24,084 nt of DNA from a virus: positions 1 through 24,084 of the IMG/VR virus record IMGVR_UViG_3300037264_004633. The stretch is one strand, 5' to 3'. The number at the start of each line of letters is the position of its first letter. The first letter of the stretch is position 1. Shown one piece after another: positions 4,022 through 23,565 of the stretch. The position numbers and the translations under genes were made by a program. A model generated the notes under the pieces. That model saw only the letters and a program-made list of their open reading frames with translations. It was not told the origin of the DNA and ran no database searches.

Positions 4022-4987
4022 TTATTCGCTTTCCGCCGTATGGCCCAAAAACGACTTGCCGTCTGGTTTAGCCGGTCCTGCCGTCGATGCTGTGCAGGAA
4101 TAAATTACGGCGTTCGTACTGTCGTAATTATTTACACCATCAACCCTCCGCATTCGCACCAAAACCTTCAACGTGTCGTTATGGTCTGCGGCTGGGGACA
4201 GCCAATTCAGATTGGCGATTCCGTTATTTCCCTTAATTGCAACCAAAGTCGGCGCATCATTCGGGTTCGGGTCAACGCCCGTATCGGTGAACCAAATCGC
4301 CCAATGCGTCGCCGCATATTCGTTATTGCGGTCGAATAAATACTGCGCCTTAACTTGTCCCTTGCCGCCGGCAGCGGGGACAATGCTTATATTGGTCGGC
4401 TCATCCGGCAGATTCGGGGCAAGGTCGTAATTATTGTCGAGTTTTAAATCCGAGCCGATAACGTTCTGGCTTAAGAGTCCCCACTTGTTTCTTTTGCGCA
4501 AAACAAATTGATAGTTGACGTTCGGGTTTAAGTTCGGAATTACGAACGGCGGCGCCAATAAATCACACAGCGTGATATCGAACGGCTCGACGGGTATTTG
4601 TGCGGGCAGCGTCTTAAAAACCGCAAACGGCGTATCATAGTTAGGGACACCATCGGTGATTAAATAGAGTTCGTATTGTTCCAACTCATCAGTTGCAATT
4701 CTAAATAATCCCTCGCCGACGTTCGGCGATATTTGCAGAAATCCTTTATTATTAACGTCAAACTCAATAGTGGCGTGACATATTTTGGTAAACTCCGCCG
4801 ATTCGGCACAGTTGGAATCAAACTCAACGGCAGCGTGACATATTTTGGTAAACTCCGCCGATTCGGCACAAGAATCGGAAAAGCTGATATCGGCATGACA
4901 ACTAACCTCATGCACTAACGCTACTTCCTGATAAGGCAGCTCTTGAAGCCATATACTGGCGTGACAACTAACGTTATATTCCGTCAT
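4022..4987 (-). CDS. Tail protein with tandem CHA repeats and fibronectin-like domains
   Basis: 321 residues from the ATG at 4987, which overlaps the upstream TGA as ATGA. A longer frame back to a TTG at 5140 would overlap the neighbour by 157 bases and is less likely; a second ATG lies at 5005. The N-terminus carries four CHAx(I/V) motifs at residues 8, 30, 50 and 70. The last two lie in near-identical 20-residue units (CAESAEFTKICHA). The rest contains two segments that read like fibronectin type III domains ('LNPNVNYQFVLRKRNKWG' and 'NDTLKVLVRMRRVDG'). It is probably a tail-tip or fibre subunit; the role of the Cys-His repeats is unknown. Confidence 0.65.
   Translation of the reverse strand: MTEYNVSCHASIWLQELPYQEVALVHEVSCHADISFSDSCAESAEFTKICHAAVEFDSNCAESAEFTKICHATIEFDVNNKGFLQISPNVGEGLFRIATDELEQYELYLITDGVPNYDTPFAVFKTLPAQIPVEPFDITLCDLLAPPFVIPNLNPNVNYQFVLRKRNKWGLLSQNVIGSDLKLDNNYDLAPNLPDEPTNISIVPAAGGKGQVKAQYLFDRNNEYAATHWAIWFTDTGVDPNPNDAPTLVAIKGNNGIANLNWLSPAADHNDTLKVLVRMRRVDGVNNYDSTNAVIYSCTASTAGPAKPDGKSFLGHTAESE
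4758..4972 (-). repeat. 60-bp tandem duplication plus older degenerate copies
   Basis: Bases 4773-4810 and 4833-4870 are identical over 38 bases at a 60-base offset. The preceding TCAAACTCAA (4758 and 4818) is repeated at the same offset. Older copies are visible as TGACAACTAAC at 4896 and 4962, 66 bases apart. All offsets are multiples of 3, so the array expands the CHA repeat of the tail protein without breaking its frame. Confidence 0.85.
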
Positions 4988-6033
4988 TGCGCGTCGAAAC
5001 TCCATTTTATTGCATTTTGCAAGGAAGGCGTTGCGGTCTGTCCCGCTATAATTATAAGCCACAACCACAATCCAATCATTCCGCCTGCGGCAATGTCCCC
5101 AATATTCAGTCCGGTCGATTCGGTTATTCCGGTTGACCAAGAAAAACCCGAAATGCCGGCGGTATCGTTTTCGTTTGCGGCGACCGTAAATGCCCCGCCG
5201 GTCGGAGATTCGCTCGCAATTTTTATTCCCGGTACGGCGTCGAGTTTATCGCTTGCCGCTCCGGCAAGCGCCGATGTACCCAAAAGTCCTCTACCCGCCG
5301 CCGGCACGGTTAGAATCGTCGCTGTTTTTTGCAAATAATAAACAATTTCACGCAGCGAGCCGCCGACCGTCGAAATCCGGCAAAATCCGGTTGCAGGCCA
5401 GTCGGCGAACGAACCGCTTGTTTCGATTGTCCCGTCGCCGGACGCAGGCAGTTGGCCGGAATCGCTCGTCTGCTGCGTGCCGAGCGCTGCAAGCCATATT
5501 TTAAGATTTTTGACTGCTTGCGTTACATTGCAGGCCCTGAATGCCATACATCGCAGTTTAATCTCGCCCGCCGCCTGTTCGGCTCCGGAGACGTTCGACG
5601 AACCGATGACGTTATTATATACGGGGACAAGCGTAACCGTCGCAATACCCTTGAGGGTTGCAGCCGTCGAACGCGTTGCAATTGCAAATTTGCAGCGATT
5701 GGCGGCATTCGCCTCGACGCCAGTTTCTAAAAGTTTTGTTTGTCCGTTCGCTATTGCGACGATAGGGCCTGGCGTTCCGTTCGGCGCAGTCCATCGCAGC
5801 GAATCACCGTCAACCGTTTCGAGGCAGCCGATTCCCTCACCATTTGCGCCTGATACGCGTTTAATGATTATTCCGGGTATTTGGCCCGTTAAAAAAAAAC
5901 CGATTTGTTCGACGTAATTCGAGCCGCGGTACCCGCCGAGGGACATATCAGGGTCGGGTTGTGCAGCGCCGTCGCTTGCCGCTCCAGTTAAAAACAAGCC
6001 CAAAGTATCGCCGTGCGTGAATTCATCGTACAT
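4984..6033 (-). CDS. Tail/virion structural protein, unrecognised family
   Basis: 349 residues, rich in Ala, Gly, Thr and Ser, as in beta-structured virion proteins. It contains 'AAGRGLLGTSALAGAASD' (about 243-260) and a C-terminal hydrophobic stretch, 'GLWLWLIIIAG', where related virion proteins carry a G.W.R.(I/V)PAG pattern from memory. It is more likely a buried beta strand than a membrane anchor. Start at ATG 6033 with AGGA about 9-10 bases upstream, preceded by a 72-base gap that shows nothing further. It ends in an ATGA overlap with the CHA-repeat gene. Its place between small tail-tip genes and the hub points to a tail-tip or fibre component. Confidence 0.6.
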   Translation of the reverse strand: MYDEFTHGDTLGLFLTGAASDGAAQPDPDMSLGGYRGSNYVEQIGFFLTGQIPGIIIKRVSGANGEGIGCLETVDGDSLRWTAPNGTPGPIVAIANGQTKLLETGVEANAANRCKFAIATRSTAATLKGIATVTLVPVYNNVIGSSNVSGAEQAAGEIKLRCMAFRACNVTQAVKNLKIWLAALGTQQTSDSGQLPASGDGTIETSGSFADWPATGFCRISTVGGSLREIVYYLQKTATILTVPAAGRGLLGTSALAGAASDKLDAVPGIKIASESPTGGAFTVAANENDTAGISGFSWSTGITESTGLNIGDIAAGGMIGLWLWLIIIAGQTATPSLQNAIKWSFDAQ

Positions 6034-9545: not shown

Positions 9546-10283
9546 TCAATCCGCTGCGCCACCTTTGATATTCGAGCCGGCGGAGACAGGGACGTCTTTT
9601 TTTTTATCGCTTTCGAGCCGCTGCGCCATCTCCATCAAGGTCGGAACGTCTATAATCACAGCCATGAGCTCAGCCAGATTTTGCGTAGTCAATAAATGCA
9701 GCATATTCACCTCGATTCTGCCGATTCGATAATTCCACGCCAGCGCATCGATTGCCAATTCCATTCTATCTTTTGCGGTCAGTTGCGGAGTCCCTTCGTC
9801 CCATTTATTTTCGATTCGGAAATCCTGCCATAATTTCTGCGCTTTTGCGGAAAATCCGGCGTATTGCGGCATTTCGCCGGTCAGGATTTCGCCATTGTCC
9901 CCAAGTATAAGCGATTGCGGCAGGGCCGAGCCGCCGCTGATAATCCTCGCAATCGGAATCAGCCAGCGTTCTCCGTCGGCCAATTCGACGTAATGGCCGG
10001 CCAACTGCCTTTTGCGGCGCAGGGCGGATTCCACGGGCAATTCGTTTTTGTAATGCCCGACGTAATAATTTCCACATTTGGCCCATACCTGCTCATCCGG
10101 CTTAAAAAATAACCGTTCTGCGTTATTGCCGAGACAGAGCAGCATACCGTCCCCATCCGGTCCGGCCGCTTGTCTTTGAGTAAATTCGTCGAGCGGCGAA
10201 ATCGCGTAAGAAAGTCCGAATTTGTCGATAACACTGGAATTAACGATGTTGACGCCTTTTAAAAAATATAAGAATCCGCTCAT
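9546..10283 (-). CDS. Protein in tail-assembly-chaperone position, unrecognised
   Basis: 245 residues. The N-terminal 'SGFLYFLKGVNIVNSS' is followed by a beta-rich part (about 20-140; 'QVWAKCGNYYVGHYK', 'GERWLIPIARIISGG') and a helical C-terminal part with 'MELAIDALAWNYRIGRIEV' and 'LAELMAVIIDVPTLMEMAQRL'. The ATGA overlap with the preceding 84-residue gene indicates translational coupling. Lying between the tail tube and tape measure, it is where many siphoviruses encode tail assembly chaperones, but those are usually smaller and this may be a structural protein. No slippery sequence joining it to its neighbour was found by eye. Confidence 0.5.
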   Translation of the reverse strand: MSGFLYFLKGVNIVNSSVIDKFGLSYAISPLDEFTQRQAAGPDGDGMLLCLGNNAERLFFKPDEQVWAKCGNYYVGHYKNELPVESALRRKRQLAGHYVELADGERWLIPIARIISGGSALPQSLILGDNGEILTGEMPQYAGFSAKAQKLWQDFRIENKWDEGTPQLTAKDRMELAIDALAWNYRIGRIEVNMLHLLTTQNLAELMAVIIDVPTLMEMAQRLESDKKKDVPVSAGSNIKGGAAD

Positions 10284-10534
10284 TTTACCTTCCTCGTTTC
10301 GATTGCGTCATCCGCATCAGGGATGGGCTTATTGTGCTGCAATGCGTCTAAAATTATGCCGGCACGCCTTTTGGCCATAATGGCCTCTCTGCAATCTTTC
10401 GTATGTTTTTCCAATTCAGCCGCCGACATATTTACAACCGGTTTTCGCACAATGTTTCCATAAGCCCTTTGTGCGGCGTGAAGGGTTTTTCTCGACGATT
10501 CGACGGTAATTGTTTCGTTTGTTTTCTTTGCCAT
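10280..10534 (-). CDS. Small basic helical protein, possible tail assembly chaperone
   Basis: 84 residues, Lys/Arg-rich and predicted helical ('SAAELEKHTKDCREAIMAKR'). It directly follows the tail-tube candidate (1-base gap; no Shine-Dalgarno, so probably coupled) and overlaps the next gene by ATGA. Size and place between tube and tape measure match gpG-type tail assembly chaperones, but there is no sequence signature and I did not find a frameshift site. Confidence 0.5.
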   Translation of the reverse strand: MAKKTNETITVESSRKTLHAAQRAYGNIVRKPVVNMSAAELEKHTKDCREAIMAKRRAGIILDALQHNKPIPDADDAIETRKVK

Positions 10535-12443: not shown

Positions 12444-13865
12444 TTATATCTCCAGTAAGGATTTTCGCTGCCATGCGCCCATGGAGTTGTAACCGTTCAA
12501 TGATTGCGTCAGGCCGCCCGGAACGGGTCTGCCGGTATTTAGGCAGGGACTGCCGTAAAGAAGCCGATAATCGCCGTTGGCAGCGTCGGCGTAAAGCGGG
12601 TCGGACTGAACGTCGCCAGGGTATGATCTCGACACGGCGTCGGGGACGCAGTTGTATCCGCAAAAATCCCTGAATAAGGAATTGACCGGATTAGTCGCCG
12701 GGTTGAACAAATCGCCTGCCGAACGCAAAATACTGTCGTTTACTAAAATCGCGTATCCGACCGTATCGGCAATATAAGTCAATGTCCCCGTCCCGATTAA
12801 GACGAGCGACGTATTCACCATATTTACGCACGGCTTTGCGGTCGAATAAAATATGTTCGTCAATGCCACGTTGTCTATTTCAATGATGCAGTCCCTTAAA
12901 TTCGCACTCGTAGGCGCCGCACCCAAAAACAGTGATACGGTATTTTGCCCGTATATCCTGAATTTACAACGCCAGAAATGGGTTTCACCGTAATGCTGGA
13001 TGATGTACCCATTCAAATTGCTCGCCGAAATTTCACAATCGAAGAATCTCGTCTTGCAACCCGAAAGGCCCGTATAAAACAGCCAAGGCATGCCGTTGTT
13101 TGCTTTATCAAATTTGCAATTCCAAAAAACAGTGCCTCGAACGGCGTTCGCGTTTGTCATCATATACGATATGCAGGCAGCGCTTTGTGAAAGTGAAATA
13201 TTTTCGATTCTCAAATTATCGCGTTCTTGATTGAATAGCGTGGTTCCGCTGTCCTGCTGCCAAACAACATAACCGTTGACAGAATCTTTATAATACTGTC
13301 CCCCGTAGCATCTGTCCCATATAGTCGTTTTGAATCCGACAACGCGGATTTCGTAATTTACCGTTAGTCCCCAATCTACGACTCTTGTCGTAAGACCTGT
13401 TTCGTCTTTGTTCGTGAAAATCGTTTGTCTATAATACGCTGCGTCCATATTGCCGACCAGCGTTTGCAGAATCGGAAATGCGCCGCCGACGTTAAAAACG
13501 GAAAATGTACCCGGAGCGTCGCTGAGGCCGGCGATTTCAATTTGCGTGTCGCTGAATTTATTCGTAATTTTGAAACGGTCGGACGTCCCAAGTCCGCTGA
13601 CGTAAACAACCATACCGATTTCGACGGCGGCAAAAGCGCCCGCCGGACCCGTAGCCGTGTAATCTACAATGCCGCCCCACGTAACCGTATCATTGAGCGC
13701 AACCAACGGCGAGCCGTGATTACCCATAATGTTACTTAACGTAAAATTGTTGCCTTTGGCGATTAGCCACGCCTCGGTACATCCGCCGGCATAATCGCTT
13801 CCTGTCTTATCACCCGTGCCGCCGACGAAGAAAACGGCCGGTTCAGTATTAAAAATATTAGCCAT
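12444..13865 (-). CDS. Right-handed beta-helix virion protein (candidate decoration or depolymerase-like spike)
   Basis: 473 residues. The N-terminal part begins 'EPAVFFVGGTGDKTGSDYAG'. Residues about 190-360 are short repeating turns of the kind 'RFFDCEISASN', 'HFWRCKFRIYG' and 'LRDCIIEIDN', as in parallel beta-helices. The end (422-441: DPLYADAANGDYRLLYGSPC) closely follows the DPxFxDxxxGDYRLxxGSPC segment of many planctomycete and other environmental beta-helix surface proteins. The start has GAGGGG about 7 bases before ATG 13865 and overlaps the previous gene by 8 bases. It lies between neck genes rather than with the tail fibres, so it may decorate the head or collar. No catalytic residues are assignable by eye. 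Confidence 0.7.
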   Translation of the reverse strand: MANIFNTEPAVFFVGGTGDKTGSDYAGGCTEAWLIAKGNNFTLSNIMGNHGSPLVALNDTVTWGGIVDYTATGPAGAFAAVEIGMVVYVSGLGTSDRFKITNKFSDTQIEIAGLSDAPGTFSVFNVGGAFPILQTLVGNMDAAYYRQTIFTNKDETGLTTRVVDWGLTVNYEIRVVGFKTTIWDRCYGGQYYKDSVNGYVVWQQDSGTTLFNQERDNLRIENISLSQSAACISYMMTNANAVRGTVFWNCKFDKANNGMPWLFYTGLSGCKTRFFDCEISASNLNGYIIQHYGETHFWRCKFRIYGQNTVSLFLGAAPTSANLRDCIIEIDNVALTNIFYSTAKPCVNMVNTSLVLIGTGTLTYIADTVGYAILVNDSILRSAGDLFNPATNPVNSLFRDFCGYNCVPDAVSRSYPGDVQSDPLYADAANGDYRLLYGSPCLNTGRPVPGGLTQSLNGYNSMGAWQRKSLLEI

Positions 13866-14148
13866 TGGATTTCCCCTCCAACTTTATTATCAAACAATCG
13901 TCGGAAATCTCAATTTCGGCGTTCGGCACAATAATTCGCAGTTGTGCCTTAATGGCGGCGAACGCTTGAGTTCTGTTTTCAGACGCTAATTCTTCTAAAA
14001 TAGCCGTTTTGCAATTTTTAATGAACGTATCCGAATAATCCCTTCCGAATTGCTTTCGCACGAATTCAGGGGACAATTCCCTCACTTGAGCGATGGAAAC
14101 GCCGTTATTTTTTACGTACTGTTCGAGTTTTTCTTTAAGCTGTCTCAT
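13858..14148 (-). CDS. Small helical protein of unknown function
   Basis: 96 residues with mostly charged helices ('RQLKEKLEQYVKNNG', 'ILEELASENRTQAF') and a beta-like C-terminus ('IVPNAEIEISDDCLIIKL'). The TAATG overlap with the upstream holin-like gene indicates coupled translation. It may take part in lysis timing or head completion, but no family is recognised. Confidence 0.6.
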   Translation of the reverse strand: MRQLKEKLEQYVKNNGVSIAQVRELSPEFVRKQFGRDYSDTFIKNCKTAILEELASENRTQAFAAIKAQLRIIVPNAEIEISDDCLIIKLEGKSNG

Positions 14149-14450
14149 TATTTTTTTAGCATATCTTTCAGCAAAAACTTTATTTCGCCGTGTTCGCGGG
14201 TATTATCCTCGCGAAACTGCGATTGGGTTTTTTCGAGCGAATCCAATACTTTTTTAATAACCTCGATCTGCGTCGTATGCGGACGCGAAACGTCGGTCCC
14301 GTTTTTTTCGATGTCCCTTACTTTTTCCGCCAGCGATTCGGTCGCCGCCTGCTGGTCGCACCAGCCGGCGATGCCGGCAACCGCAATTCCGAGCAGCGTT
14401 ATAATTACCGGCAAATTAGCTAAAAATCCGTTAAGCATTCTGCTCATCAT
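14148..14450 (-). CDS. Holin-like membrane protein, copy A
   Basis: 100 residues. One hydrophobic segment (about 14-32, 'VIITLLGIAVAGIAGWC') is followed by a charged, coiled-coil-like tail ending 'EHGEIKFLLKDMLKK'. It is about 60% identical (58 of about 92 aligned positions by eye) to the 99-residue protein at 15713-16012, so the pair arose by duplication. One membrane helix and a helical soluble tail recall XhlA-type lysis accessories and class III holins. AGGGAG lies 2 bases from the first ATG and 5 from the second (14447), which may be the true start. It is preceded by a 17-bp perfect hairpin and coupled (TAATG) to the next gene. Confidence 0.65.
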   Translation of the reverse strand: MMSRMLNGFLANLPVIITLLGIAVAGIAGWCDQQAATESLAEKVRDIEKNGTDVSRPHTTQIEVIKKVLDSLEKTQSQFREDNTREHGEIKFLLKDMLKK

Positions 14451-14463
14451 AACTCCCTTTTCC

Positions 14464-14506
14464 CCGCAGTGTGCGGGCGGTTAGTCAGGCCGCCCGCACA
14501 CTGCGG
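14464..14506. repeat. 17-bp perfect GC-rich inverted repeat
   Basis: CCGCAGTGTGCGGGCGG (14464-14480) and its exact reverse complement (14490-14506) flank a 9-base loop. The repeat lies between the gpFII-like gene and the holin-like copy A, a few bases before the latter's ribosome site (AGGGAG). There is no T-run on either strand, so it is not a standard terminator. It could act as an mRNA stabiliser, processing site or weak attenuator. Confidence 0.85.
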
Positions 14507-14516
14507 AGGAAGGCGA

Positions 14517-14888
14517 TTATTTAACTTTATGTTTATAACCTTCGTGGTATTTGCTGACGTGCCGATGCGCTATTACGGCCAGCGTTGCCTTACCGAGCCG
14601 CTTATCTTTTACGTCCGTGATCTCCCACGTTCGAGCGTCGCCGGCAATAACGATTGTTCCGTTTATTTCGGGTTCGGCGATTCCATATACGGCGTCCGTA
14701 ATTATCGTAATGTCCCTGCGTGATATTTCCGTTTCGCCGTGTTCACTATCGTCGATAGCCGTATCTTCCGGTCCCGGAATCCCTTTTGTCACCGTTACAA
14801 CGCCCGCCGGCGACGTGTATGTTATCGCCGACGCGGCCTCGCCGTCGTAAATAACGGACTTCAAATCATCAGCTATAACTAATCCCAC
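14517..14888 (-). CDS. gpFII-like head-tail joining protein
   Basis: 123 residues, beta-rich. Lambda gpFII and related tail-attachment proteins share a pattern of a strand on the ruler residue set, 'ISRRDITI', a Gly turn, then 'GTIVIAGDARTWEITDVKD' and 'GKATLAVIAHR'. The start is a GTG at 14888 with GAGG about 9 bases upstream and a 10-base overlap with the previous gene. Its placement between the lysis genes and the neck cluster fits a head-tail joining role. The family call is moderate because it rests on the beta pattern and length. Confidence 0.5.
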   Translation of the reverse strand: MGLVIADDLKSVIYDGEAASAITYTSPAGVVTVTKGIPGPEDTAIDDSEHGETEISRRDITIITDAVYGIAEPEINGTIVIAGDARTWEITDVKDKRLGKATLAVIAHRHVSKYHEGYKHKVK

Positions 14889-15094
14889 ACGCCAATCCCC
14901 TCACTTTTTACATTGCCATAAGATATCAACTTATAGTTCGCGAGTTTCTGACAGCCATCCAGTTTAATATATAAACCCGAACTCAAATCAAAGTGAGTGA
15001 ACGTTGCCGCTTCTGCCTTATGGGTACACCAGCCCAAAAAGAACAGCAGTAAGGCGATAATAATCACCCTAATTATTTTAAACAGTTCTTGCAT
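14879..15094 (-). CDS. Small secreted or lipoprotein-like protein in the lysis cassette
   Basis: 71 residues. The N-terminus is a signal-like segment (about 6-23, 'KIIRVIIIALLLFFLGWC') with Cys at the end of the hydrophobic core and 'KAEAA' after it. LGWC is a non-canonical lipobox; an alternative is cleavage at AEA-A. Small exported or lipid-anchored proteins beside an endolysin are often outer-membrane spanin parts. The ORF overlaps the hydrolase stop by 17 bases. Only the export signal and context are visible; spanin is a possibility, not shown. Confidence 0.5.
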   Translation of the reverse strand: MQELFKIIRVIIIALLLFFLGWCTHKAEAATFTHFDLSSGLYIKLDGCQKLANYKLISYGNVKSEGIGVWD

Positions 15095-15713
15095 AAAAAT
15101 ATTTAACCCACCACGTTAAATTTATTCCTTGAGGCAGCAGTATCGCCCCACGACGCTTGATTATTATCGTATATCTTCGCGGGGACACAATTCGAAGCCA
15201 CTTGCCGGACGTGACGTAATTGCTTACCTCGCTGCAATACCAGAGAAATTCCCGATTGACCGCTTTGGCAAGAATGCTTATTTGTCTTTTGGTTTGCTTA
15301 AACAACAAACTTAACCCATACAAAATTGAGCCAAAACCGGCCAAACCGAGGTAATCATATCCCTTACCCAATTCATCATTAGACCTATCAATCATATCCT
15401 CAACATCTTTCGGGTTTTTATATATCTCCGCGTAGATGTTCCATTCATCGGAATTAACCAGCAATTCGCCGGCGGAAATCCAACGCGTTCCTATCCCCAT
15501 AACCGAGGAAAAGAACCATAGCCCGCCGTTTACAAAGAATCCGGTTTCGGTGTGATATTCTGGCGGAGTATTCCAGTTGAACGGTTTTGTATAGAGCGAT
15601 ATGATATTGCCGACGGTAAACAGTCCGTCATTTTGCCGAACTTTACGCTGTGCAGTAAGCACAACCGGATAGTCTACCTGCTCATAAATCAATCTTTTAT
15701 TCATCGGCCGCAT
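15078..15713 (-). CDS. Permuted papain-fold hydrolase, candidate endolysin (NlpC/YiiX-like)
   Basis: 211 residues. The layout matches circularly permuted NlpC/P60-YiiX enzymes, in which a catalytic His comes first and the Cys last. Here H54 lies in 'YHTETGFF' and C160 in 'WYCSEV', the YxCSE(L/V) context of YiiX-type proteins, with 'GKGYDYLGLAG' (116-126) between them. Such enzymes cleave peptidoglycan stem peptides or amide/ester bonds. Its location between a holin-like gene and a small exported protein suggests the lysis enzyme of the phage. It lacks a signal peptide, fitting holin-dependent release. ATG 15713 overlaps the holin-like stop as TAATG; a second Met (MNKRL) is 9 bases further on. 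Family-level confidence is moderate. Confidence 0.6.
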   Translation of the reverse strand: MRPMNKRLIYEQVDYPVVLTAQRKVRQNDGLFTVGNIISLYTKPFNWNTPPEYHTETGFFVNGGLWFFSSVMGIGTRWISAGELLVNSDEWNIYAEIYKNPKDVEDMIDRSNDELGKGYDYLGLAGFGSILYGLSLLFKQTKRQISILAKAVNREFLWYCSEVSNYVTSGKWLRIVSPRRYTIIIKRRGAILLPQGINLTWWVKYFYARTV

Positions 15714-16012
15714 TATTTTTTATTTAAAATATCCTTTAGCATAATTTTTATTTCTGTGTGCTCGCGCCTGTTATCTTCCCGAAATTGCATTTGGTTTTTT
15801 TCGTAGGATTTCATTGTTTCCTTGAAAATTTCAATCTTGGTCTCGTTTATTCGCGCCAGTTTGGATCCGTTTTCTTCGAACTCACCCATTCTTTCGGCTA
15901 AATATTCGGTTGACGATTGCTGGTCGCACCATCCCATGATGCCGGCTACTGCAAAACCGGCGAGCGTAATTATTACTGGAAGATTATTTAAAAACCCTTT
16001 AAATCTGTTCAT
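15713..16012 (-). CDS. Holin-like membrane protein, copy B
   Basis: 99 residues from ATG 16012, which has AAGGG about 6 bases upstream; a TTG at 16018 lies in the same frame but is a weaker start. One hydrophobic helix (about 12-28, 'PVIITLAGFAVAGIMGW') is followed by a charged helical tail ending 'EHTEIKIMLKDILNKK'. It is about 60% identical to the holin-like copy at 14148-14450, including the N-terminal GFLxNLP. It lies after a GC-rich hairpin and directly before the hydrolase gene (TAATG coupling), so of the two it is the better holin candidate. Two similar copies could form a holin/antiholin pair or act at different times. Confidence 0.65.
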   Translation of the reverse strand: MNRFKGFLNNLPVIITLAGFAVAGIMGWCDQQSSTEYLAERMGEFEENGSKLARINETKIEIFKETMKSYEKNQMQFREDNRREHTEIKIMLKDILNKK

Positions 16013-16023
16013 AGTCAACCCTT

Positions 16024-16067
16024 AACCGGAATGCGGGCCGAGCAGAAACATTCGGCCCGCTCCGGTT
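16024..16067. repeat. GC-rich hairpin between capsid gene and holin-like gene
   Basis: AACCGGA and GCGGGCCGA (16024-16041, with a 2-base bulge) pair with TCGGCCCGC and TCCGGTT (16052-16067), giving 16 paired bases with a 10-base loop. It lies just after the stop of the major capsid gene on the minus strand and before the holin-like copy B ribosome site. Four T's follow on the plus side and only two on the minus side, so it is at best a weak terminator for the operon. Confidence 0.8.
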
Positions 16068-16092: not shown

Positions 16093-17052
16093 TTAGCTCA
16101 GCGTCGCATGGGCGGCATACTGCCAATACGCGTACCCAACATTACGATTTGCCTTGATGCCATATAGGTGTCTGTCGTTGGTAAATTCTTCGTAACTTCC
16201 TTCGGCTTGCGCTTGTATCTCAATATCGGCTTCATTTTGGCGAATAAGCGCCTTTGCCGGGGCGTCCGTGCGAAAGACAACAAATTGCGTTGTGTAGGCC
16301 AATCTGGCATTGGAGACGATTCCGACGTTAAATCCTTCTTTGGATATTATTTTTTGGACAGGATTATCCTCGCCGCTACCGACTTTTTCCGAATATACGC
16401 CGCCGGCAAGATGCTGCCAGAGGGCAGGACTTGTCATAACAAGGAAATTCCGTGCGTTCTCATTCAACGGCTCACCCTCGTTGTCGAGATAACCCATCAT
16501 GTACCCAATAACGCCGAGTATGGCCTTTGCGGCCTCCGCAGACGTCGGGGCAGTAGCTGTTGCGACGTTGAGGGCTGCAACCTGGGCTGCGGCCAAAAGA
16601 TTGAGTTGTGTGCCGCTGTCGCCCTCGGAGTGGTCTGTATCGAAGAAATACTGACCGTCGTAGCACAGACCGCTCGTCGCCCCGGTGCCGTTGGTTATCA
16701 ATGTGGAAAGCAGTTTGTTCCAATGTGACAAGGCACGAACGGCCAATTCGTCGATTCGAATTTGAACCTGTTGAGTTTTGTCCCTGCGGATTTCATCGAC
16801 GAGAACCTGAAGCGTTGCCTCAAATTTTTTATTGACGACAGTGATGCCGTTGCTGCTGAACGCCTTGGCGTTGCGGCCGCCGACCCATTCCCGCATTTGC
16901 GGAATCTGGCCGAGCCATTTGTATGTTTCGGACTCCTGGTCGCTGTCGAATAACATCGATATCAGATCGAGCCACGAAGTCCCCGTTAACTGCTGTAACC
17001 GGGCGAATAATTTGCCGATAATCGCCCTTGAGCCTAAAGCACTTGCTCCCAT
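16093..17052 (-). CDS. Major capsid protein, Mu gpT-like
   Basis: 319 residues. Mu gpT is about 305, and the sequence follows that family: 'YKWLGQIPQMREWVGGRNAK' early, 'KKFEATLQVLVDEIRRDKTQ', 'ELAVRALSHWNKLLSTLI', then 'CYDGQYFFDTDH' (about 140) and 'NFLVMTSPALW' (about 200). Family members share W.G.R, the (L/I)..EI.(D/R)D segment and DGQ.FFDTDH. The protein forms the HK97-fold shell, to which portal, protease and cement proteins attach. ATG 17052 has AAGGA about 8 bases upstream, a good site for a highly translated gene. The gene is bracketed by hairpins (17080-17164 and 16024-16067). gpT with lambda-like packaging genes is a mosaic head. Confidence 0.85.
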   Translation of the reverse strand: MGASALGSRAIIGKLFARLQQLTGTSWLDLISMLFDSDQESETYKWLGQIPQMREWVGGRNAKAFSSNGITVVNKKFEATLQVLVDEIRRDKTQQVQIRIDELAVRALSHWNKLLSTLITNGTGATSGLCYDGQYFFDTDHSEGDSGTQLNLLAAAQVAALNVATATAPTSAEAAKAILGVIGYMMGYLDNEGEPLNENARNFLVMTSPALWQHLAGGVYSEKVGSGEDNPVQKIISKEGFNVGIVSNARLAYTTQFVVFRTDAPAKALIRQNEADIEIQAQAEGSYEEFTNDRHLYGIKANRNVGYAYWQYAAHATLS

Positions 17053-17079: not shown

Positions 17080-17130
17080 AACAAAAAAACGGCAGTCGAG
17101 TGTTCGGGCACCCGAATGCCGTTTTTTGTT
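17080..17130. terminator. Terminator-like hairpin just upstream of the capsid gene
   Basis: AACAAAAAAACGGCA (17080-17094) pairs with TGCCGTTTTTTGTT (17117-17130); an inner TTCGGG-CA-CCCGAA hairpin (17103-17116) sits inside with an 8-base bulge. A T-run follows the CGGCA/TGCCG stem on both strands, so it could act in either direction. Only 27 bases separate it from the capsid ATG (17052), too few for a full promoter, so readthrough is expected. Confidence 0.75.
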
Positions 17131-21388: not shown

Positions 21389-21616
21389 TTATTGTTCAAG
21401 AGATTTGAAGTTTAAACCGCATTTCGAGCATTTATGATATCGAATGGGCTTATGTGTGCTGTCATACACGGGGACATTATCGCTATTGCAGCGGGGACAT
21501 TTAAGTTTGAAATATCGGATGGTTATGTTTTCCCAACTGACCGGCTTATTTTCTTTTTTTGGGGCCGGCGGACCCATTCCTATATCGGGCAGATTGTCCA
21601 AAAATCCGTTTTTCAT
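21389..21616 (-). CDS. Small zinc-ribbon protein coupled to the large terminase
   Basis: 75 residues. C40-x2-C43 ('CPRC') and C63-x2-C66 ('CSKC') form a zinc ribbon, probably binding one zinc. The N-terminus (MKNGFLDNLPD) copies the last residues of the large terminase (GFLDNLPNL), and at the DNA level the two segments are a 35-bp-offset direct repeat. The start overlaps the terminase stop as ATGA, so it is coupled. The function is unknown; a DNA- or terminase-binding role is plausible. Pro/Lys-rich residues (about 15-27) link the peptide to the ribbon. Confidence 0.65.
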   Translation of the reverse strand: MKNGFLDNLPDIGMGPPAPKKENKPVSWENITIRYFKLKCPRCNSDNVPVYDSTHKPIRYHKCSKCGLNFKSLEQ

Positions 21617-21642
21617 AAGTTCGGCAGGTTATCCAAAAATCC
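21588..21642 (-). repeat. Direct repeat linking the terminase end to the zinc-ribbon start
   Basis: GGCAGATTGTCCAAAAATCC (21588-21607) and GGCAGGTTATCCAAAAATCC (21623-21642) agree at 18 of 20 bases with an offset of 35. The offset is not a multiple of 3, and the ATGA overlap of the two genes shifts the frame to match. The same peptide is therefore read in both frames (GFLDNLPN and GFLDNLPD). Confidence 0.8.
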
Positions 21643-23565
21643 CTCGCCCTTTTTCCGTTCTCTTACCGGCGACGGCCGCCTTGCGGCCAATCGCTGGGCA
21701 ACGGCCGCGGGAATAAAAGTTTTTCGCTCAGCCGCCGGCGTCATATAATGGACCCCCTTGAGCATGGCCGCAGCGGCGGTCAATACTTCTATATCCAGCG
21801 AGTGCGTAGGGGCACCTTCGGTGACTGTCTTCCACTCGTGCTGTTTGTGTCCGTACCTATCCGCTATTTCCACGCGGTGTTCGTTCGTAAGCTCCTTAAA
21901 ATAATAATCCGGTATTTCCGTAAAATATTTTGTGCCGCCGTTTTCCATCTCAAGCCAGGTCGTCGTCTGGTCCTTGAAAAAACTCGTGTCAATATTTAAA
22001 AGCTGCATACCCTTAAATTTTTCATTGCGAAAACCTAACCGTTTTAATATTGCCGCCTCCGGCGAGGAAAAAAACAGCGGATTTTTTTGTGGGGTAGAGA
22101 TGCCCTTCGAAGGCAGTGCAATTCCCCTTCGTTTTATGCAGTAGTTATATACTTCGTCGGGTTTGTACCCCGAATCTACGATAAGCATTATAACCGCCAG
22201 AAACGGGCGGGTTTCGTTCGGCGTACCGTCCGCCCACGGGAAAGGGTTTAATAATACCTGGCGGTCTAATTCTGCAAAACTCGTCACCGAGCCGTAATCG
22301 ATAAGCCAGTTGGTTTCGTTGTACCCGAAACCGCGGATTCCGTAATCAATTCTGACAATTCCCTTTTGCGACTCGTGATAATCCGCACCCGCCACAAGCA
22401 ACTGGCATTCCGGCGGCACCGTCCGCCGAGAAAATCCGCCTATTCTTTTTTTGGTCTCGTCTTTGTCTATTTTCTTGCCGACTTTTTCCCAGTGAACGGC
22501 GTCAACGGTATTGTTGAATACCATCAATTTGCCGGTAAGCAGCCCCTCGGCCGTGTTCGCCTCAAACCACAGGGACATAATTTCCGCCCATCGCTTCCAC
22601 GGAGATAGCAACTGCGTAAAATGATATCCGCTGATTCTTTTGCTCTGTACCGGCTCGCCGTAAAGTTTGCCGTCCGGCCTGATTGTCTGCCCCTCAGGGA
22701 CGTATCGACCCCGGCTTACCAGCGACGGCTTTTCCCATTCGTCGATTCTGCCGCGGCAGTGGCGGCACATCAGCCAAACCTCTCCCTTTTCTTTGATGTA
22801 GGTAGGGTCCCTGTTGTCATCCTCATAAACCAGACTCGAAAATTTCCACCAGAAATATTCCCCGCAACGCGGGCAGGGTATATAATATTCCTGCTGATTG
22901 CTTTTGTACCACCATATCGTGATGTAGTTGTATCGCGTCGTCGGCGGCGATGCCATCACAATCTTATGGTCCCAGTAAGCGTCCGTTCTCGATATCGCCC
23001 CTTCGATGGGATTAACGTCTTTGCCCATAAAGGAAGGATATGCGTCCACGTCGTCGAGGTATAAATTTCTAATCGACCGTGCCTTGACGTCAGCAGGCGA
23101 ATTGCTGCCGGCAAATTCCAAAGTCATATTGTCAAAATAAAAGCCGCTGTTCGATAAATCCCATACCCTGCCCGTCAGGTGTTTCGCCACGGCTGGCATT
23201 TTCTCCATTTCTGGTTTTAACCGCTTATTTACGACGTAAGGTATATCCTTATCGTCCCTCGGCAAAACCAGCATAGAGTCCGACGGGTCTATGTCAACCG
23301 AACAGCCAATCATATTATATATTGCCGACGATTTGCCCATTTGCGGCGGCGTCATAAAAACAATAATTTCCACTTCAGTATCCGTAAATGCGTCCTGCGG
23401 TTCTCGCAGGTACGGCGTTCTGTCTGTCCGCCATTGTCCCCTCTCCGGACCGTAGGCGACGATGCGGTTTTTGTCGGCCCAGTCCGAAACAGTGATTGCC
23501 TCAGGCAATCGCCACGCCTCCCTTTCTTTCGCAGACCAGATTTTAGACGCCGCTTTATTCATCAT
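21613..23565 (-). CDS. Terminase large subunit, GpA family
   Basis: 650 residues (lambda gpA is 641). Walker A-like 'TPPQMGKSS' (72-80), Walker B 'NLYLDDVD' (167-174) and 'MASPP' (204-208) form the ATPase motor. C231-x2-C234 and C267-x2-C270 are the zinc-binding Cys pairs seen in GpA proteins. 'VAGADYHES' (391-399), 'LIVDSGYKPDEVY' (461-473) and 'THSLDIEVLTAAAA' (587-600) provide candidate nuclease acids D395, D464 and D591. It cuts concatemeric DNA and drives it through the portal. The start is in a TAATG overlap with the small terminase without a Shine-Dalgarno, so translation is coupled. Its C-terminal GFLDNLPNL is repeated in the next gene. Confidence 0.9.
   Translation of the reverse strand: MMNKAASKIWSAKEREAWRLPEAITVSDWADKNRIVAYGPERGQWRTDRTPYLREPQDAFTDTEVEIIVFMTPPQMGKSSAIYNMIGCSVDIDPSDSMLVLPRDDKDIPYVVNKRLKPEMEKMPAVAKHLTGRVWDLSNSGFYFDNMTLEFAGSNSPADVKARSIRNLYLDDVDAYPSFMGKDVNPIEGAISRTDAYWDHKIVMASPPTTRYNYITIWWYKSNQQEYYIPCPRCGEYFWWKFSSLVYEDDNRDPTYIKEKGEVWLMCRHCRGRIDEWEKPSLVSRGRYVPEGQTIRPDGKLYGEPVQSKRISGYHFTQLLSPWKRWAEIMSLWFEANTAEGLLTGKLMVFNNTVDAVHWEKVGKKIDKDETKKRIGGFSRRTVPPECQLLVAGADYHESQKGIVRIDYGIRGFGYNETNWLIDYGSVTSFAELDRQVLLNPFPWADGTPNETRPFLAVIMLIVDSGYKPDEVYNYCIKRRGIALPSKGISTPQKNPLFFSSPEAAILKRLGFRNEKFKGMQLLNIDTSFFKDQTTTWLEMENGGTKYFTEIPDYYFKELTNEHRVEIADRYGHKQHEWKTVTEGAPTHSLDIEVLTAAAAMLKGVHYMTPAAERKTFIPAAVAQRLAARRPSPVRERKKGEGFLDNLPNL

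Follow-up and report, generated by a model that had tools for sequence, protein, structure and literature searches.

The i-spanin of phage lambda, Rz, combines a transmembrane (TM) segment with helices joined by a linker (PMC6139136). Other phages make more than one holin-like protein: P1 encodes LydA, LydC and LydD (PMC9025707), and the Bacillus phage Deep-Purple encodes HolP30 and HolP33, both required together (PMC9327680). For neither set did we find an account of sister copies placed on either side of a head–tail gene. Two sister membrane proteins, c1 and c2, are so arranged in the window analysed here (the whole stretch of DNA, one virus record of 24,084 bp, its late genes all on the minus strand). 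The pair probably helps to break open the host cell, since c1 and c2 occupy the two positions at which host-bursting genes lie in related phages.

Paired membrane-protein genes in the late operon

The late genes run in the order large terminase, zinc-ribbon protein, portal (1.1e-56), probable protease/scaffold, probable decoration protein and gpT-type capsid. These are followed by c2, pap, exp, a gpFII-like gene, c1, a 96-aa gene, a 473-aa gene (homologous at 5e-21 in the comparison with the relative L009) and the tail genes. In GTDB the capsid is matched best by a Sedimentisphaerales MAG (63%), and the host is therefore probably a planctomycete. The features of interest are:

21613–23565, minus strand: large terminase (GpA family; PF05876, 4.5e-54)
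21389–21616, minus strand: zinc-ribbon protein, neighbour of the large terminase
16093–17052, minus strand: major capsid protein, Mu gpT family (PF10124, 9e-39; phrog_371, 1.7e-50)
16024–16067, minus strand: GC-rich hairpin 2, between the capsid stop and the ribosome site of c2 (MFE −31.1, z −3.9)
15713–16012, minus strand: c2, 99 aa, directly downstream of the capsid gene
15078–15713, minus strand: pap, 211-aa putative permuted papain-fold hydrolase, TAATG-coupled to c2 (motifs HTETG, YDYLG, WYCSEV)
14879–15094, minus strand: exp, 71-aa exported or membrane-anchored protein (hydrophobic N-terminus ending LGWC)
14517–14888, minus strand: gpFII-like head–tail joining protein (HMM built from relatives, E 4.6e-7)
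14464–14506, minus strand: GC-rich hairpin 1, between the gpFII-like stop and the ribosome site of c1 (z −9.1)
14148–14450, minus strand: c1, 100-aa paralogue of c2, directly downstream of the gpFII-like gene (likely start 14447)
13858–14148, minus strand: 96-aa protein, function unassigned, TAATG-coupled to c1

By eye the 96-aa gene resembles the one behind the TM gene of L009, a likeness dropped at a BLAST E of 0.34. Towards the other end of the window, the protein of 4022–5140 carries tandem internal repeats (SCHADISF and AESAEFTKICHAxxEF units) and is probably tail-associated.

The duplication described in the earlier note is borne out: c1 and c2 are identical at 59 of 99 residues (60%, E 3e-44; the earlier count was 58 of about 92), and the window holds exactly two copies. 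The TAATG coupling of each copy to its next gene is likewise there in the sequence, at 14150–14146 for c1 and 15715–15711 for c2. The probable start of c1 is its second ATG, at 14447 (MSRM...), which fits the MNR of c2 and gives better ribosome-site spacing. The two genes share 69% of their DNA, with dN 0.27, dS ~1.4 and dN/dS ~0.2, and 7 of 22 fourfold sites are identical against 25% expected, placing silent sites at chance and thus at saturation. The copies are therefore anciently diverged sisters, each under purifying constraint, and not the recent paralogues they had been taken for. No other three consecutive genes of the window are as poor in GC as c2, pap and exp (40% versus a mean of 49%) and c1 lies nearer the genome average, so c1 is probably the resident copy, with c2 and its two neighbours acquired later from a related phage. 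No single-copy relative able to order the gain of c2 was found.

Both proteins have a single hydrophobic helix, as the earlier note had read them, and it lies near the N-terminus. In c2 the TM helix spans residues ~8–28, with an invariant Cys at its end, and is followed by a predicted helical coiled-coil tail. An invariant GWC closes the hydrophobic helix of both copies, and the tail segment QFREDNxREHxEIK is nearly invariant. A low-confidence model of c1 (pLDDT 53) contains a TM helix (5–27) and two further helices (31–51 and 60–99), and the last helix of each copy follows a heptad pattern (p ~0.01 each). The sequence reads as positive at the N-terminus and acidic after the TM segment, for which we predict an N-in/C-out topology. 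With one N-terminal TM in a small protein, predicted to sit in the inner membrane, c1 and c2 have the basic form of an i-spanin. The fuller Rz-like layout (N-in/C-out, linker-joined helical coiled coils) is suggested by the positive-inside reading, the pLDDT 53 model and the heptad pattern. The 24-kb structural region encodes just three small membrane proteins, c1, c2 and the exported protein, and in all three (14148–14450, 15713–16012 and 14879–15094) the TM helix ends in GWC, which is no standard lipobox and is possibly a disulfide site.

Family searches place neither protein. The best profile matches are Rz-like, weak and insignificant as evidence of spanin-family similarity (phrog_739, E 0.008; LysB, 0.056; phrog_89, 0.19), and the XhlA or holin membership proposed earlier gained no HMM match for either. 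A pattern scan, which unusual lipoboxes could escape, found no lipobox ORF, and hence no o-spanin, in the window. Searches of annotated phages and GTDB genomes found no homologue of c1 or c2; viral contigs gave only L003, a doubtful match (43% over 38 aa), and a motif-pattern scan of those contigs added none. A neighbouring gene in L003 looked like an M15 peptidase by eye and has no Pfam match.

The genes between the copies had been named as a papain-like hydrolase, an exported protein and a gpFII-like gene. The last stands, by its profile match and its place in the head–tail operon, and the hydrophobic N-terminus of exp makes export plausible. The papain-like assignment has weak profile and motif support: pap touches a single PHROG family, phrog_1128 (E 0.027; 3e-4 when searched in this record), gains nothing from Pfam, NCBIfam or the PDB, and gives an uninformative single-sequence structure model (pLDDT 38). 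Searches of phages, viral contigs and 11 records returned no relative of pap by sequence.

Hairpins at the ends of the capsid and gpFII-like genes

Both GC-rich hairpins reported earlier are real, each lying directly before a ribosome site, and no hairpin at any other gene end of the window is as strong. Hairpin 1 has a perfect 17-bp core (MFE −49.4 with flanks), and its extended stem pairs with the ribosome site of c1, which could limit c1 translation. Intrinsic termination was considered for both and rejected: they have no U-tract and were not called by the terminator scan. A terminator-like hairpin with a U run lies just upstream of the capsid gene (17084–17127), and the capsid gene is thus bracketed by hairpins.

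Starting from 80 capsid relatives, 62 loci remained once near-duplicates were removed. In 30 of these, versus 4.6 expected, the strongest hairpin at any gene end falls within 110 nt downstream of the capsid stop. The hairpins are unrelated to one another in sequence and occur across relatives with a different TM gene there or none, many having none. A strong hairpin without a U-tract follows the gpT capsid stop at 16024–16067 in the window and at the same position in many relatives among L004–L083, a conserved structural feature of this message end. Because capsid-end hairpins are common with or without a holin-like gene behind them, hairpin 2 belongs to the end of the capsid gene in general and is not an element of the holin-like gene. 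Hairpin 1 is not explained by the gpFII slot, since L087, L126 and L159, in which TM genes of this slot or a comparable one were checked, have no similar hairpin there; the resident copy may have brought it from an earlier position at the capsid end. Holin-specific control, which the pairing of the hairpins with c1 and c2 had suggested, is rejected for hairpin 2 and not supported for hairpin 1.

Membrane-protein genes near the capsid in related phages

Relatives with gpT-type capsids place TM genes in two slots, the capsid–gpFII interval and the position directly after gpFII, and the window fills both (with c2 and c1, respectively). In several of them a verified peptidoglycan hydrolase follows directly. 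In L025 a small TM/coiled-coil gene precedes a GH19 gene (1e-12), and in L026 a TM gene, its product likewise of N-terminal-TM layout, precedes Hydrolase_2/SleB (2.8e-17). L029 has a TM gene, then Amidase_2 (1.1e-14) and GTA_holin_3TM (7.5e-14). TM genes are followed by M15_3 in L033 (9.5e-6), M15_4 in L061 (1.5e-9) and VanY in L159 (8.1e-6). The order c2–pap repeats this layout, a TM/coiled-coil gene directly upstream of a putative hydrolase, with the identity of pap weak; c1 is followed by the 96-aa gene. By automatic counting four further loci (L055, L063, L064 and L068) have TM genes in both slots; judged by size and sequence, at least one hit in each is tail-type or pilin-like and not a coiled-coil protein.

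These comparisons mark the capsid/gpFII region as a recurring site of lysis cassettes in gpT-capsid phages, and they favour the pairing with lysis that the earlier note had drawn. The record of L018 adds to this evidence. It has no post-capsid TM gene, and a papain-like gene (phrog_1128, 7.9e-7) and a TM86 gene belong to a cluster behind its tail genes; a gene of this cluster that resembled M15 by eye has no Pfam match. As a side observation, the 165-aa protein (9894–10391) behind the SleB hydrolase of L026 has His/Cys motifs that recall a permuted papain fold, with no library match.

The closest relatives differ. In the eight with capsids 62–73% identical (L005, L008, L009, L011, L013, L014, L016 and L017), no recognisable hydrolase lies beside the post-capsid TM gene, which belongs to a different family from c1 and c2 and has its TM at the C-terminal end. 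Scans of the mid-size proteins in four close-relative records (L009, L012, L015 and L016; 25–43 kb) found no known endolysin or other known peptidoglycan hydrolase by Pfam or PHROGs. In the close relatives covered here, standard families thus fail to pick out the lysis genes of planctomycete phages, and this clade may use lysis enzymes of novel families. The earlier note had staked its lysis reading on neither protein proving to be a head protein and on relatives showing some link to lysis. Neither was placed in a head family, and the wider set of relatives does show such a link; the missing hydrolase in the closest relatives counts against it.

Function of the pair and comparison with known systems

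We favour, slightly beyond an even chance, a role for c1 and c2 as host-lysis proteins, either i-spanin-like or accessory holins. The main support comes from the recurrent cassettes in relatives, and the main counter-evidence from the closest relatives without a recognisable hydrolase neighbour. In each protein a single membrane helix would separate a short N-terminal segment in the cytoplasm from a helical coiled-coil tail of ~65 residues outside the membrane. Together with the putative papain-fold cell-wall hydrolase and the small exported protein, c2 would form a lysis cassette that was inserted into the interval from capsid to gpFII, and c1, just after gpFII, would hold the other place of the equivalent gene in related phages. 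The two would most likely form oligomers, possibly mixed ones, in the membrane and disrupt the envelope. The hairpins, we infer, would mark where the strongly expressed capsid and gpFII messages end and hold down expression of the lysis genes that follow. The locus points to the capsid/gpFII junction as a probable lysis-gene site and to the two sister membrane proteins as candidates.

The N-termini of c1 and c2 also share a motif with the large terminase and the neighbouring zinc-ribbon protein, a new observation:

21622–21642, minus strand: GFLDNLP, C-terminus of the large terminase
21587–21607, minus strand: GFLDNLP, N-terminus of the zinc-ribbon protein
15977–15997, minus strand: GFLNNLP, predicted cytoplasmic N-terminus of c2
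14409–14429, minus strand: GFLANLP, predicted cytoplasmic N-terminus of c1

Across the called proteins of all loci, the strict form GFLx[ND]LP occurs at terminase C-termini and zinc-ribbon N-termini and otherwise only in c1 and c2 (~697,000 other residues). FLxxLP lies near the start in 10 of 13 zinc-ribbon relatives; several terminase tails of the clade carry it, and in others I or M replaces the second L. The tails of more distant terminases are RRVRSKGI-like instead.

A possible reading of the motif is a docking partner shared by the proteins that bear it, and the large terminase of lambda, gpA, does bind the connector (PMC2366019). c1 and c2 might then be membrane partners in packaging or head assembly, their GFLxNLP docking where the terminase tail and the zinc-ribbon protein also bind, perhaps on the portal. 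The confinement of the strict motif to these proteins and a predicted N-in topology, which puts it in the cytoplasm, speak for this. We nevertheless hold it to be quite improbable: the motif was chosen post hoc, an NLP ahead of a TM helix is to some degree expected, the VI form of the peptide occurs inside an unrelated ATPase-like family, and close relatives lack the motif in their post-capsid TM proteins. A long shot is that the pair links lysis or the membrane with packaging: with the docking peptide of the terminase and the zinc-ribbon protein, c1 and c2 would compete for a common partner such as the portal, or be held by it, with release at the end of packaging. The motif offers a way to ask whether a phage membrane protein reads out DNA packaging.

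The earlier note had raised a two-step or dose-tuned timer, in which a holin/antiholin-like pair would time lysis through a ratio set by the hairpins. Two retained copies, each with its own hairpin and ribosome site, would suit such a timer, as would the multi-holin precedents of P1 and Deep-Purple. It is unlikely, however, given that hairpin 2 belongs to capsid ends in general, that saturation speaks against a recent dosage duplication, and that neither protein matches a holin family. A dual-start holin/antiholin was also tried in c1 (MMSRM) and rejected: the second ATG best fits the ribosome site, and c2 has no second nearby start. Moron-type genes for host interaction (superinfection exclusion or envelope modification), with no part in lysis, would agree with the acquired look of the low-GC c2–pap–exp block and with the glycosyltransferase and secreted-protein genes behind the post-capsid TM gene of L009 and L011. 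This is improbable in view of the TM/hydrolase pairs that recur at these sites in more distant relatives, and of c1, which sits within the rest of the late operon and has no moron-like features.

Set beside described systems, the proposed lysis pair resembles P1 and Deep-Purple in the presence of several holin-like genes in one phage. Phage permuted papain-fold (YiiX/C92-like) enzymes share with pap a CSE-type Cys motif and the phrog_1128 alignment also seen in L174; unlike them, pap has no match to PF05708, and its papain fold is putative. XhlA-type coiled-coil proteins upstream of endolysins (L025, L033, L054 and L055) occupy the same slot with a cell-wall enzyme adjacent downstream, but their coiled coil precedes a C-terminal TM, whereas c1 and c2 have an N-terminal TM and match no XhlA HMM. 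The cassettes of L026, L029 and L061 come closer in layout, with an N-terminal TM and a coiled coil followed by SleB, Amidase_2 or M15 downstream of a gpT capsid. They differ in being single-copy, in having no sequence similarity to c1 and c2 and in their post-TM charges, which suggest a cytoplasmic coiled coil, on the opposite side to the predicted c1/c2 tail. The Rz-type i-spanins of lambda differ in that we found no o-spanin lipoprotein or embedded or overlapping partner frame here, and in that the window has two copies at a site adjoining the capsid gene. They are alike in size, in the single N-terminal TM, in the predicted N-in/C-out topology, in a modelled pair of linker-joined helices and in a conserved Cys near the membrane.
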